Part shown: positions 3,492 through 17,085 of the stretch, one piece after another
Position numbering within the stretch: position 1 is the stretch's first letter
Layout of the letters: every line of letters starts with the position of its first letter
NCBI GenBank assembly: GCA_937944405.1
Contig: CALDYR010000086.1
Span: 1-32,073, forward strand
DNA: 32,073 nt
Direction of reading: 5' to 3'
Origin: an uncultured Pirellulaceae bacterium
GTDB lineage: Bacteria; Planctomycetota; Planctomycetia; Pirellulales; Pirellulaceae
Made by a program: the position numbers and the translations under genes
The notes under the pieces: model-generated
Seen by the model: the letters and a program-made list of their open reading frames with translations, nothing else
Databases searched by the model: none
What the model was told of the DNA's origin: nothing

Positions 3492-5111
3492 TTAGTTAAT
3501 CGCACCTTCGACTAAACTTTTCTGTTTATCGTCTTCATCGAAAGTCGACACCATCGCGTCGGTGGTCAATAACAGACCAGCGATGCTACCGGCATTGGCC
3601 AACGCGGTGCGAACAACCTTTACGGGGTCGATGACGCCGGCTTTGTACATGTCGGTATATTGGCCAGTGTAGGCATTAAAACCTTGGTTGGTCGGTTTTT
3701 CAGCCACGGTGTCTGCGACAACCGAACCCGAGATGCCACCGTTGTCGGCGATCTGACGAATTGGAGCATCCAATGCACCGAGCACGATGTCGACGCCGAT
3801 TTTTTCGTCACCTTTGGCGCCTTTGCGGGCTGCTTCGACAGCCTCTTTGCAACGTAACAGCGCCACGCCGCCTCCGGGCAAGATGCCTTCTTCGACTGCC
3901 GCACGGGTTGCGTGCAGGGCGTCTTCGACACGCGCTTTCTTTTGTTTCATGTCAGCTTCAGTTTCTGCACCGACGCTGACCACGGCAACGCCACCAGAAA
4001 GTTTTGCTCGGCGTTCGGACAGTTTCTCTTTGTCGTACTCGCTGTCGGACTGATCGATCTGTTTGCCTAATTGAGCAATACGTGCTTCGATGTCTTTGCG
4101 GGAGCCAGAGCCTTCAACGATCGTCGTCGAACTTTTGTCGACGGTGAGTTTTTTGGCGGTGCCGAGTTGATTGAGTTCGACCTTCTCCAACTGGATGCCA
4201 AGGTCTTCGCTGATCATGGTGCCACCGGTCAGGACGGCAATGTCGCTGAGCATGGCTTTGCGGCGATCGCCGAAGCCGGGGGCTTTGACGGCACAAACGT
4301 TCAGCGTGCCACGCAGTTTATTGACCACCAACAAGGTGAGCGCTTCGGCGTCAACGTCTTCGGCAATGATCAACAAAGGGACCCCTGCTTGACCGACTTT
4401 TTCCAGTACAGGAACCAGAGACGCGATGTTGCTGATTTTCTTTTCGAAGATCAGAACTTTCGCGTTTTCCATCTCGCAAGACATGGAATCAGGGCTGTTG
4501 ATGAAGTAAGGCGAGATATATCCTTTGTCGAACTGCATTCCGTCGACGTACTCGACTGTCGTTTCAGCGGTTTTGCTTTCTTCGACCGTGATGACGCCAT
4601 CTTTTCCGACTTTCTCAAGGGCTTCGGCCAAAAGGCCTCCGATGAAATTGTCGTTATTAGCGCTGATGGCACCGACGTTCGCGATTTCTTCGGTCTTAGA
4701 GACGTTTTTCGACATGCTGTGTAGGTGTTCAACTGCAGCGTTGACGGCGCGGTTAATGCCTCGCCGAACAGCGGTTGGGTTACTACCGGCGACGATATTA
4801 CGAAGACCTTCTTTGAAGATCGCGCGTGCCAACACAGTCGCGGTCGTGGTTCCGTCTCCGGCTAAGTCGGACGTTTTCTGAGCCACTTCAACAACTAGTT
4901 TGGCACCCATGTTTTCGAACCGGTCTTCCAATTCGACTTCTTTGGCGACCGTGACACCGTCTTTGGTGACCGTGGGGCCACCGAAAGATTTGTTTATAAT
5001 GACGTTGCGACCGGTAGGCCCCATGGTGACCGCGACCGCATCGGCAAGTTTATCGATGCCGCGAAGCATCCGCGCCCGGGCATGATCTTCAAAAATTAAT
5101 TGTTTAGCCAC
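3492..5111 (-). CDS. groEL: Chaperonin GroEL, second paralogue (no GGM tail)
   Basis: ATP-driven Hsp60 folding chamber subunit, 539 residues. Nucleotide-site motifs are present: KDGVTVAKE (the Asp52 region), [12 protein letters not shown], and [15 protein letters not shown], which matches the E. coli Asp398 segment exactly. The apical GroES/client face looks standard ([26 protein letters not shown]). The protein ends with an acidic stretch and SLVEGAIN instead of the usual Gly-Gly-Met tail. It starts at GTG, with AAGGAAAG upstream. groES lies 79 bp upstream, so groES-groEL2 looks like a conventional groESL unit, with groEL1 added in front. It is clearly divergent from the other paralogue, so not a recent duplicate. 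Confidence 0.95.
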
Positions 5112-5606: not shown

Positions 5607-8018
<2,412 letters not shown>

Positions 8019-14430: not shown

Positions 14431-15132
14431 ATGGCCAAACCTAAAATAGGGCTTCCCGACAGTTTTTCCGGAATCGTGAGGCTATTTCCACTGCCGAATG
14501 TGGTGCTGTTTCCCGGCGTCGTGCAGGCGCTGCACGTTTTCGAACCACGGTACAAGGAAATGGTCCAAGAAGCTATCGCGAGTGATGAATTGATCACGAT
14601 GGCGATGGTGAAGCCCGAACAATTGGTCACCTCGGGCGATCGGCCGGCGTTGTTCGATACCGTTTGCATCGGCAAAATTATGACGCATGCGGAGTTAGAA
14701 GATGGGCGCTATAATTTGCTGTTGGCGGGGGTCCGACGGGCACGGATTTTAGAGGAAGTCAACTTCGAACTCAATTTTCGTAAGGCGCGAGTGGAATTGT
14801 TGGCTGATGACGAAGACGCCGAACCGGCCGATCAACTGCAGGAACTGAGACAGCGGGTCGTTGATCAGTTTTTGCAAATGTTGCCTGCTCAGTCTCATTT
14901 GGATCGCGCTTCACTGGACAGTCTTTTGGAAAGCGATGTTGGGACTGGACAACTGGTGGATTTAATTTGCTATTCCTGTGGTGCGCATCCTCTAGAATTA
15001 CAGCAAGCCCTTGGGATCGACAGCGTCGTCAAACGGGCCGAGTTCATTCTCAAGATTCTGCGCCGGTTGGAGAAACAGGTCCAGTCGCCAGAACCACCAA
15101 GCGAATTTCCACCGAATTTTAGTCTGAATTAG
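14431..15132 (+). CDS. LON substrate-binding-domain protein (no protease domain)
   Basis: 233 residues consisting of the LON N-terminal (PUA-like) substrate-recognition domain plus a helical C-terminal part. Diagnostic is RLFPLPNVVLFPGVVQALHVFEPRYKEM (about residues 12-39), followed by the CIGKIMTHAELEDGRYNLLLAGVRRARI strand region. There is no AAA+ ATPase and no Ser-Lys protease dyad, so it is not a Lon protease. Such stand-alone proteins are common, and their function is not established; adaptor or client recognition is the usual guess. It is 7 bp downstream of the BI-1 gene and clearly in its operon. The selenoprotein gene starts 115 bp downstream. Confidence 0.9.
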   Translation: MAKPKIGLPDSFSGIVRLFPLPNVVLFPGVVQALHVFEPRYKEMVQEAIASDELITMAMVKPEQLVTSGDRPALFDTVCIGKIMTHAELEDGRYNLLLAGVRRARILEEVNFELNFRKARVELLADDEDAEPADQLQELRQRVVDQFLQMLPAQSHLDRASLDSLLESDVGTGQLVDLICYSCGAHPLELQQALGIDSVVKRAEFILKILRRLEKQVQSPEPPSEFPPNFSLN

Positions 15133-15235
15133 TGGCACAACGGCAGGTTGCGTTCTGCCCTATGAAAACTATTTTTTCAGTCTACTTTTTGGAGCACCAC
15201 ACAAATTTCCCAACAACGGTCGGGAATGTTTTTTG

Positions 15236-15242
15236 AAAGGAG
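15236..15242 (+). promoter_or_regulatory. Shine-Dalgarno deciding the selenoprotein start
   Basis: AAAGGAG lies 5 nt before the ATG at 15248. It is one of the better ribosome sites in the window. It marks an ATG whose frame reaches TGA after only ten codons, which supports read-through of that TGA rather than a start downstream. Confidence 0.8.
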
Positions 15243-15247
15243 CTGTT

Positions 15248-15487
15248 ATGAAGATAACAATCGAATACTGCAACGAGTGATTTTTTCTCCCTCAGGCCAC
15301 CAGTTTGGCGGCCGATATCGAGAACGAATTCGGAGTGAAACCCACATTAGTTGCGGGTAGTGGCGGCGTCTACAAAATCACGGCCGACGATAAGGTGCTT
15401 TACTGTAAGCACGATTCTGACGACCAGTTTCCAGCCGAAGGCCAAGTTATTGCTGCGGTCAAAGCCTACCAACAGTCGCTAGATTGA
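15248..15487 (+). CDS. SelW/Rdx-family selenoprotein (in-frame UGA as selenocysteine)
   Basis: Small thioredoxin-like redox protein of the SelW/SelT/SelH (Rdx) family, 79 residues if TGA at 15278-15280 is read as selenocysteine. The product begins MKITIEYCNEU, so the UGA falls exactly on the second redox residue of the family CxxC/CxxU motif (Cys8, Sec11). After the UGA the frame stays open and family-like: FFLPQATSLAADIENEFGV, then a GSGGVYKI strand, KVLYCKHDSD, and the closing FPAEGQVIAAVKAY helix. Typical annotation would either miss it or start at the TTG at 15305. Evidence for decoding is the strong Shine-Dalgarno, intact family sequence on both sides and a SECIS-like hairpin. The alternative is a single nonsense mutation in a Cys codon. 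The sel machinery lies outside the window. Confidence 0.85.
15295..15313 (+). promoter_or_regulatory. Candidate bacterial SECIS hairpin
   Basis: GGCCACC (15295-15301) pairs with GGCGGCC (15307-15313), 6 of 7 pairs with one A-C mismatch, closing the 5-nt loop AGUUU. The loop begins 22 nt after the UGA, inside the 16-37 nt window known for bacterial SECIS elements. It has a G among its first two bases, as SelB recognition usually needs. It lies within the coding sequence, as in bacteria. Confidence 0.65.
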
Positions 15488-15610
15488 TCCGTAACCTGTC
15501 GGAAGAACGATTGAACGAGAGCTACATATTGCTGACCGAAAGATCCGCTCACCCAAGCGATCCAACAAAAGCATGATGCTGAAGTATCAAACGCAAGTTA
15601 GTTGACGTAA

Positions 15611-15669
15611 TCGTAGTGGGATTCGCCAGAGCTCCCCTCAGCCCGGGATTCCGGCGAATTCCACTACGA
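15611..15669. repeat. 59-bp palindromic intergenic element (REP/MITE-like)
   Basis: Left arm TCGTAGTGGGATTCGCC (15611-15627) pairs with right arm GGCGAATTCCACTACGA (15653-15669) over 17 positions with one G-T wobble, around a 25-bp centre. It lies between convergent genes. The sequence type resembles intergenic palindromes I associate with Rhodopirellula-like genomes, but I could not search for copies. Confidence 0.7.
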
Positions 15670-15734
15670 AACAAGGCACCAATCTTATGACCCTTGGTAG
15701 TGCGCTGACAACAGCCCGCCCTGCGGGTTTCACT

Positions 15735-15769
15735 AACAACGAACAACTAACAACGAACAACGAACAACT
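15735..15769. repeat. Five tandem heptamers AACAACG/AACAACT
   Basis: Five consecutive 7-bp units in the order G, T, G, G, T at the last base, ending 5 bp before the xylA stop codon. It is a simple microsatellite that should vary in length between strains. Confidence 0.9.
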
Positions 15770-15774
15770 AACCT

Positions 15775-17085
15775 TTACACAAAACGGTTGATGTAGTTCT
15801 CAAGGAACTCTTGGCGCCCGCTGGTGTTGGGGGCGGCTTCGCCTTTGTTGATCATGTATTGGCTGAGCGATTTGAAGTCATGTTTTCCGGCCTCGATGGC
15901 TTTGCCAACGCCTTGGTCCCAACTTGAGTAACGTTGGTTGACAAATTTTTGCATTCCTTCATCGGCTCGAATCGCGGCTGCTATTTTTAAACCGCGCGCA
16001 AATGCGTCCATGCCGCCAATGTGTGCGTAAAACAAATCGATAGGATCGATGCTTTCGCGCCGCACTTTTGCATCGAAGTTTACGCCACCGGGCCCAATGC
16101 CACCGTGCTTGAGGATTGCCAGCATGCATTGGGTGGTCAGATAAATGTCCGTCGGGAACTGATCGGTGTCCCAGCCTAATAGAAGGTCACCGGTGTTGGC
16201 GTCAATCGATCCAAGGCAATCCTGCGTTCCGGCGTAGTCCAGTTCATGCATCATCGTGTGTCCTGACAGCGTTGCGTGGTTCGTTTCGATGTTCAATTTA
16301 AAACGATCCATCAAACCGTAAGCCCGCAGAAAGTTGATGCATGCTGCGGCGTCGCTATCGTACTGGTGTTTGGTGGGTTCTTTGGGTTTGGGTTCGATCA
16401 GGAATGTTCCCGTGAATCCGATCTCGTCGGCGTAAGCGGTGGCCATGTTCAGAAACTGGCCCAGATGATCCATTTCCCTTTTCATGTCGGTGTTAAAAAG
16501 GTTCATGTAACCTTCACGACCGCCCCAGAACACGTAGTTCTCGCCGCCCAAGCGGAGGGTGACTTCCAGTGCTTTTTTGACTTGAGCGGCGGCGAAGGCA
16601 AACACGTCGGCATTGCAACTGGTCGCGGCGCCGTGCATGTATCGCGGGTGGGAGAACATATTAGCCGTTCCCCACAGTAATTTGATACCGGTGCGTTGTT
16701 GTTCTTCTTCCAGCACGTCGGCGATCTTGTCGAGGTTTTCATGGGTCTGGGCCAGGGTGCTGCCTTCGGGCGCGACGTCGCGATCGTGGAATGCGTAGAA
16801 TGGAGCGCCTAACTTTTCCATGAACTCAAACGCAACGCGTGCCCGGTTGATGGCGTTGTCGAGGCTGGCGGTTCCGTCTTCCCATGGTCGGTTTAGGGTC
16901 GGGGCACCGAAGGGGTCGCTGCCGTTGGCCCGGAAGGTGTGCCAGTAAACGACGCTGAAGCGCAAGTGCTCCTTCATCGTTTTCCCTTCGATGACTTCCT
17001 CGGGATCGTAGTATCGAAAGGCAAGCGGGTTGTCGGAGTTCGGCCCTTCAAATTTGATTTTCGGAACATCAGGGAAGGCTGCCAT
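15775..17085 (-). CDS. xylA: Xylose isomerase
   Basis: Interconverts D-xylose and D-xylulose (also glucose/fructose) with two divalent metals; cytoplasmic tetramer. 436 residues, the length of class II enzymes. Catalytic and metal residues are visible: His100 and Asp103 in [13 protein letters not shown], the [15 protein letters not shown] block with Glu231 and Lys233, Glu267/His270 in [12 protein letters not shown], Asp295 in GSIDANTGD, and Asp306/Asp308 in [17 protein letters not shown] sits 6 nt before the ATG, one of the strongest ribosome sites here. No xylulokinase or xylose transporter is adjacent. A 12-bp palindrome 68 bp upstream may be an operator. Confidence 0.98.

Follow-up and report, generated by a model that had tools for sequence, protein, structure and literature searches.

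A predicted SelW-like selenoprotein gene with an in-frame UGA codon in a Pirellulaceae planctomycete

Results

Gene, reading frame, and surrounding features

The window, which is the whole 32,073-nucleotide stretch of DNA that was analysed, is contig C86 of a draft genome of an uncultured Pirellulaceae planctomycete (3.95 Mb, 161 contigs, 93.4% complete, 1.55% contaminated). A predicted SelW-like (Rdx family) selenoprotein gene occupies 15248..15487 of the + strand and encodes 79 residues, with selenocysteine (Sec) predicted at residue 11. The original prediction had described a Shine-Dalgarno sequence and an ATG at the head of this frame, and both were observed: a Shine-Dalgarno-like AAAGGAG (15236..15242, + strand) can be read directly 5 nt upstream of ATG 15248. 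Translation gave MKITIEYCNE, the UGA codon (15278..15280, + strand), 68 further residues, and a TGA stop at 15485-15487. The UGA is codon 11 and stands at the second active-site residue of a CxxU motif, C8-N-E-U11, the Cys or Sec position to which it had been assigned. An in-frame TTG is present at 15305, as noted at the outset, and a start there would give a 60-residue stump lacking the CxxU site. The first base of this TTG is the third loop base of a bacterial SECIS-like hairpin (15295..15313, + strand; apical loop GUU at 15303-15305). Two conserved neighbours lie upstream on the same strand, a LON substrate-binding domain protein gene (PF02190, 14431..15132) and, before it, a Bax1-I family membrane protein gene (PF01027, 13701..14423).

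Family membership and predicted fold

Proteins of the Rdx/SelW-like family carry CxxC or CxxU after the first strand. The Pfam Rdx model (PF10262) matched residues 2-72 of the window protein at 46.8 bits (gathering score 22.6), covering profile positions 1-73 of 74 and running across the UGA; the 68 downstream residues had earlier been described as family-like. The best NCBIfam match was the equivalog SelTWH_Campy (NF041051), which all 29 members of sequence set A3 matched at E 0.01 or better; the window protein scored 68.3 bits, below the curated cut-off of 88, and was not filed there. The subfamily model CXXU_selWTH (TIGR02174) gave 28.8 bits, also below its curated cut-off (34.2). One A3 member matched a beta-lactamase model (E 0.00094), and this match was taken as chance.

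The AlphaFold model, built from 29 sequences with Sec entered as Cys, had a pLDDT of 93.3 and a pTM of 0.81. Its secondary structure elements were E3-8, H14-28, E33-37, E42-46, E49-53, H54-57, and H66-78, and C8-N-E-U11 was located between strand E3-8 and helix H14-28, where the Rdx family has its CxxC or CxxU. A structure search with this model matched 22 PDB chains with an E of 0.001 or lower, which belong to 2FA8, 2P0G, 2OBK, 2OJL, 2OKA, 3DEX, and 2NPB, and thioredoxins ranked lower among the matches. The entries 2FA8, 2P0G, and 2NPB are titled SelW or SelW-related, and 2OBK is named SelT/selW/selH; 2OJL, 2OKA, and 3DEX have no SelW-type name but match by sequence. A phmmer search against the sequences of solved structures gave six matches at E up to 1, with 3DEX as the best (1.2e-6). 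The bacterial Rdx structures (3DEX, 2OJL, 2OKA, 2FA8, 2OBK, 2P0G) showed the same fold with TM-scores of 0.81-0.86 by query length, and mouse SelW (2NPB) showed it with 0.69. These solved Rdx proteins, 2NPB included, are 18-31% identical to the window protein, and the bacterial ones presumably carry Cys, not Sec. The window protein is predicted to adopt the Rdx thioredoxin-like fold of solved SelW/Rdx proteins. The model and the PDB matches together place the CxxU after strand 1 and before helix 1, an arrangement shared with thioredoxin-fold oxidoreductases.

The UGA codon in related genomes

The relatives searched were 197 genomes of the same genus, family, and order, including the window's own, and 92 of them contained a total of 97 Rdx matches. 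The codon 11 position was TGA in 90 of the 97 matches and Cys in the other seven. In this order, the SelW gene with the UGA is frequent (89 of the 197 genomes) and conserved, and within the window's genus it was found in 24 of 28 genomes. A comparison of TGC/TGT with TGA homologues had been proposed as a check, and it gave close relatives that carry TGA, not Cys. Six of the Cys forms have the motif CRWLxRAxW in common, and L051 is a different Cys form. By eye, two or more types can be told apart among the TGA proteins, one window-like and one marked by the motif YEPxAVSL together with a short insertion. Two matches missed by the regular expression, L056 and L057, were read by hand as a Cys Rdx and a TGA Rdx, respectively. 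L057 (G025:C1:1130594-1130752) is a second, divergent Rdx with TGA at CxxU; its genome has a gene of the window type as well.

Named genomes gave 198 confirmed matches, and the best 80 of these loci all have TGA. The loci were found by a subfamily-typical motif 3′ of the UGA and therefore cannot reveal Cys forms without that motif. Their taxa include Planctomycetota, Acidobacteria, Deltaproteobacteria, Myxococcales, Betaproteobacteria, Krumholzibacteriota, Zixiibacteriota, and others. The 80-locus and 197-genome sets are not independent, because several contigs apparently occur in both. The window frame with its in-frame UGA is real and above chance.

Selenocysteine machinery and other in-frame TGA genes

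Profile searches of the window's genome detected selA (579.8 bits), selB (343.5 bits), and selD (254.4 bits), each over its curated cut-off. The tRNA-Sec gene (selC) scored 66 bits against a cut-off of 47, and ARAGORN gave the anticodon tca. The selA, selB, tRNA-Sec, and selD genes are each on their own contig. The original prediction had asked for these four genes and regarded a genome without selA, selB, or selC as contrary evidence; all four are present, over their cut-offs. A frame of 735 residues (L018, G000:C29) has SelD as its C-terminal part, contains no in-frame TGA, and looks oxidoreductase-like by eye in its N-terminal half.

Four other redox genes of the same genome contain one TGA in frame: a formate dehydrogenase alpha gene (L117, G000:C21:28723-30735) and three AhpC/TSA-fold genes (L119 on C60, L120 on C27, and L125 on C14). 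FdhA matched at 816 bits, and its TGA is followed by HAPTVAGL. The three AhpC/TSA-fold genes are among 17 such matches and showed the contexts W-U-P-F-C, W-U-P-Y-C, and T-U-P-P-C. We take the TGA sites of these four genes to be the usual catalytic positions of their families.

Among the genomes searched, 77 of the 89 that have the TGA gene also have selA over the cut-off, compared with 36 of the 108 that lack the TGA gene (Fisher p 1.3e-14, phylogeny ignored). The genomes with the TGA gene but no selA over the cut-off were G002, G003, G004, G018, G021, G029, G090, G092, G144, G146, G149, and G193. Ten of these 12 are 80-92% complete, and in G021 a selA piece runs to the contig end; G029 (99%) and G193 (96%, 8% contaminated) are harder to explain. 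In 15 genomes, selA and the TGA gene were on one contig. Three of them are single-contig genomes (G025, G046, and G082), with the two genes over 400 kb apart. In the other 12, all drafts, the distance was within 10 kb in ten and about 18 kb in two. In G119 (C236), selA and a TGA SelW-like gene are separated by 124 bp. A selA-selW cluster is possible in the draft genomes.

The hairpin downstream of the UGA

By the bacterial SECIS rule, a hairpin lies directly 3′ of the UGA at a set distance and has GU in its apical loop. The window hairpin taken alone was not unusually stable (z −1.31), with 25 of 200 shuffles equally good, and an A.C mismatch leaves four of its five inner pairs. An Rfam search of 15000-15800 at a permissive threshold gave six matches, all below gathering scores and none a SECIS family. 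The SelW/Rdx selenoprotein reading is supported by family, CxxU motif, conserved UGA, and Sec genes; the folding energy of the window sequence alone does not support the hairpin. As single-sequence folding was not significant, a comparative test was used. Individual 54-nt folds had inconsistent outer stems, with L037, L038, L043, and L044 preferring another fold, and therefore the inner pairs alone were counted.

The sample consisted of 89 TGA loci (L057 left out), corresponding to 84 distinct rows of 36 nt each. Of these rows, 58 form all five inner pairs and 26 do not, compared with a mean of 2.6 and a maximum of 9 in 2000 draws from a synonymous-codon null that pools the codon usage of all the genes and ignores relatedness. 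Pair (20,32) occurred as C-G, U-A, U-G, G-C, A-U, and G-U, and pair (22,30) as U-G, C-G, U-A, and A-U. Of the 84 rows, 58 form pair (19,33), the outermost one, and 62 form pair (21,31). When the helix was slid by 1 to 3 positions in both directions, all five inner pairs formed in 0 of 89 rows.

The apical loop was mostly G-U-(U/C), with GUU or GUC in 78 of the 84 distinct rows. Of the 85 genes that have Ser in the loop, 82 encode it as AGT, a codon that accounts for 34 of 394 Ser codons in the rest of these genes. The Cys-type genes tested (n = 6) had no AGT Ser codon and formed 1-3 of the five pairs. In the rows from named genomes, at least four inner pairs form in 77 of 77 distinct rows (null mean 10.5, maximum 19, 500 draws); these rows were found by the motif 3′ of the UGA, and the hairpin codons (Ser) may have been selected with it. 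The single-sequence evidence is weak and the comparative evidence strong: covariation and synonymous constraint support a hairpin after the UGA that is conserved beyond the protein code and appears to be SECIS-like.

Discussion

Reading of the UGA codon

The locus most probably holds the gene of a small SelW-like oxidoreductase in which the UGA is decoded as Sec via the hairpin, and we give this reading a probability of about 0.96. The SelW/Rdx selenoprotein interpretation first put forward for this DNA is supported and very probably right.

The DNA cannot reveal the amino acid inserted at a UGA, and general reassignment or leaky read-through might place Trp or some other residue there. This is very improbable, since TGA terminates the window gene itself and 5 of 30 genes of the loci examined, and the neighbouring genes match their Pfam families by translation table 11 with no internal stop. 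The presence of tRNA-Sec, SelA, SelB, and SelD, the Cys at this position in the remaining seven Rdx matches, and the SECIS-like hairpin 3′ of the UGA also argue for Sec over such a residue.

The standard code interrupts the frame at the UGA and the genome is a draft, so that a true stop in a recent pseudogene, or a sequencing error, had to be considered. The nearest relative, L021, is 71% identical to the window protein. Over the 68 codons 3′ of the UGA, this comparison gave a dN of 0.18 and a dS of about 1.76 (near saturation). These codons are under purifying selection, with protein constraint throughout. The 10 codons 5′ of the UGA gave a dN of 0.26 and a dS of 0.37, numbers too small to tell. 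The first 12 codons 3′ of the UGA, which contain the hairpin, had a dS of 0.29 over just 8.3 synonymous sites, and the other 56 were saturated; the low value is a hint of RNA-level constraint at the hairpin codons. The intactness of the sequence on both sides of the UGA had been held to argue against decay, and the pattern named as contrary to it was a TGA unique to this gene, with Cys in close relatives and relaxed substitution downstream. Here the TGA is shared with relatives and the downstream codons show purifying selection. The same codon is TGA in nearly all matches from the 197 genomes and, among the best 80 named-genome loci, in many phyla. This conservation in independent assemblies refutes the pseudogene or error explanation, which keeps hardly any probability.

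A start at TTG 15305, which a mechanical gene caller would pick, yielding the protein without an active site, is equally implausible, as the TTG begins inside the loop of the conserved hairpin, TTG or CTG there is explained by base pairing, the start codon lies 10 codons 5′ of the UGA in 28 of 30 loci and 11 in the other two, and the segment 5′ of the UGA is conserved (M1, I5, and C8 invariant and Y7 nearly so across 25 aligned sequences, chosen for reaching residue 1).

Proposed mechanism

For the Sec-containing SelW-like protein, ribosomes would start at ATG 15248, and at UGA 15278 a SelB-tRNA-Sec complex recruited by the hairpin would insert selenocysteine. Translation would end at TGA 15485. 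The predicted fold of the product is thioredoxin-like, as in Rdx proteins, and C8-x-x-U11 would lie in the loop from the first strand to the first helix. The selenol may attack a disulfide, a peroxide, or a glutathionylated substrate; a selenenylsulfide with C8 would form next and would be reduced again by cellular thiols. The protein most likely works by such a selenol/thiol redox cycle and presumably functions as a CxxU oxidoreductase.

Relation to known SelW-like selenoproteins

SelW of Geobacter and Campylobacter was among predictions made in 2005 (PMC1242214). A 2006 survey listed SelW-like with the number 10 and noted that, among organisms containing Sec, Cys homologues of it are very few or absent (PMC1794560). 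SelW-like was the most numerous family of the Global Ocean Sampling survey, with 427 CxxU Sec and 56 Cys forms (PMC2398784). SelW was listed with 35 in a 2016 survey (PMC5029168) and made up 11.3% of the selenoprotein genes in a 2021 marine survey (PMC9402790). The window protein resembles these bacterial selenoproteins (PMC1242214, PMC1794560, PMC2398784) in size, CxxU motif, and scarcity of Cys homologues. It differs in host lineage, as Planctomycetes do not appear to be named as bearers in these reports, supplementary tables aside.

The Campylobacter jejuni SelW on CJnc60 (PMC11955535) is of similar size (80-81 aa), has its UGA read by tRNA-Sec, and was absent from the annotation. Its read-through is supported by Ribo-seq and proteomics and its full-length translation was shown, whereas that of the window protein is predicted. 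Planctomycetes from Porphyra were reported in 2016 to have Sec-insertion genes and several putative selenoproteins, fdhA included (PMC4807772), as is the case for the window's genome. The main text of that paper has 0 occurrences of SelW or Rdx, its candidate table being in the supplement. A search of titles and abstracts found no work on planctomycete SelW, which is weak evidence of absence. The bacterial SelW selenoprotein family itself is known, and what is new is a UGA-bearing member in a little-surveyed lineage. Since the family was already known in bacteria, the finding is an annotation correction and not a new kind of system; mechanical gene callers would delete the active site of the UGA-bearing SelW gene.

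Gene neighbourhood and possible role

Of 30 loci with flanks of up to 1.5 kb (L020-L049), 24 have the LON-domain gene as the immediate same-strand upstream neighbour, and in 21 of these 24 the Bax1-I family gene was also found. The six loci without the LON-domain gene (L031, L039, L040, L041, L047, and L048) belong without exception to other genera of the family, and the gene is present within the same flank in each of the 22 same-genus loci. Two further loci of the genus, L060 and L063, showed part of the LON-domain gene within a 0.5 kb flank. The selW gene may be co-transcribed with these upstream genes.

A Sec-only SelW could tentatively be regarded as the third gene of a conserved Bax1-inhibitor/LON-domain/SelW unit in this lineage, carrying out a selenium-dependent redox step in the quality control of membranes or proteins, although we consider this proposal rather doubtful. 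If it is true, obligate SelW selenoproteins would have a so far unrecognised reservoir in the Pirellulales, comprising two or more Sec subfamilies, some of them near selA. The BI-1/LON-domain/SelW neighbourhood gives a concrete starting point for working out what bacterial SelW does in the cell. Farther away, grpE, dnaJ, two groEL copies, and a SelR-domain (MsrB-type) gene are found 8-14 kb upstream on the other strand, and to assign SelW to the quality control of proteins or membranes during oxidative stress would be a guess from this neighbourhood. The two groEL-type chaperonin genes differ from each other and are adjacent (3492-5111 and 5607-7319, − strand), followed by dnaJ and grpE.
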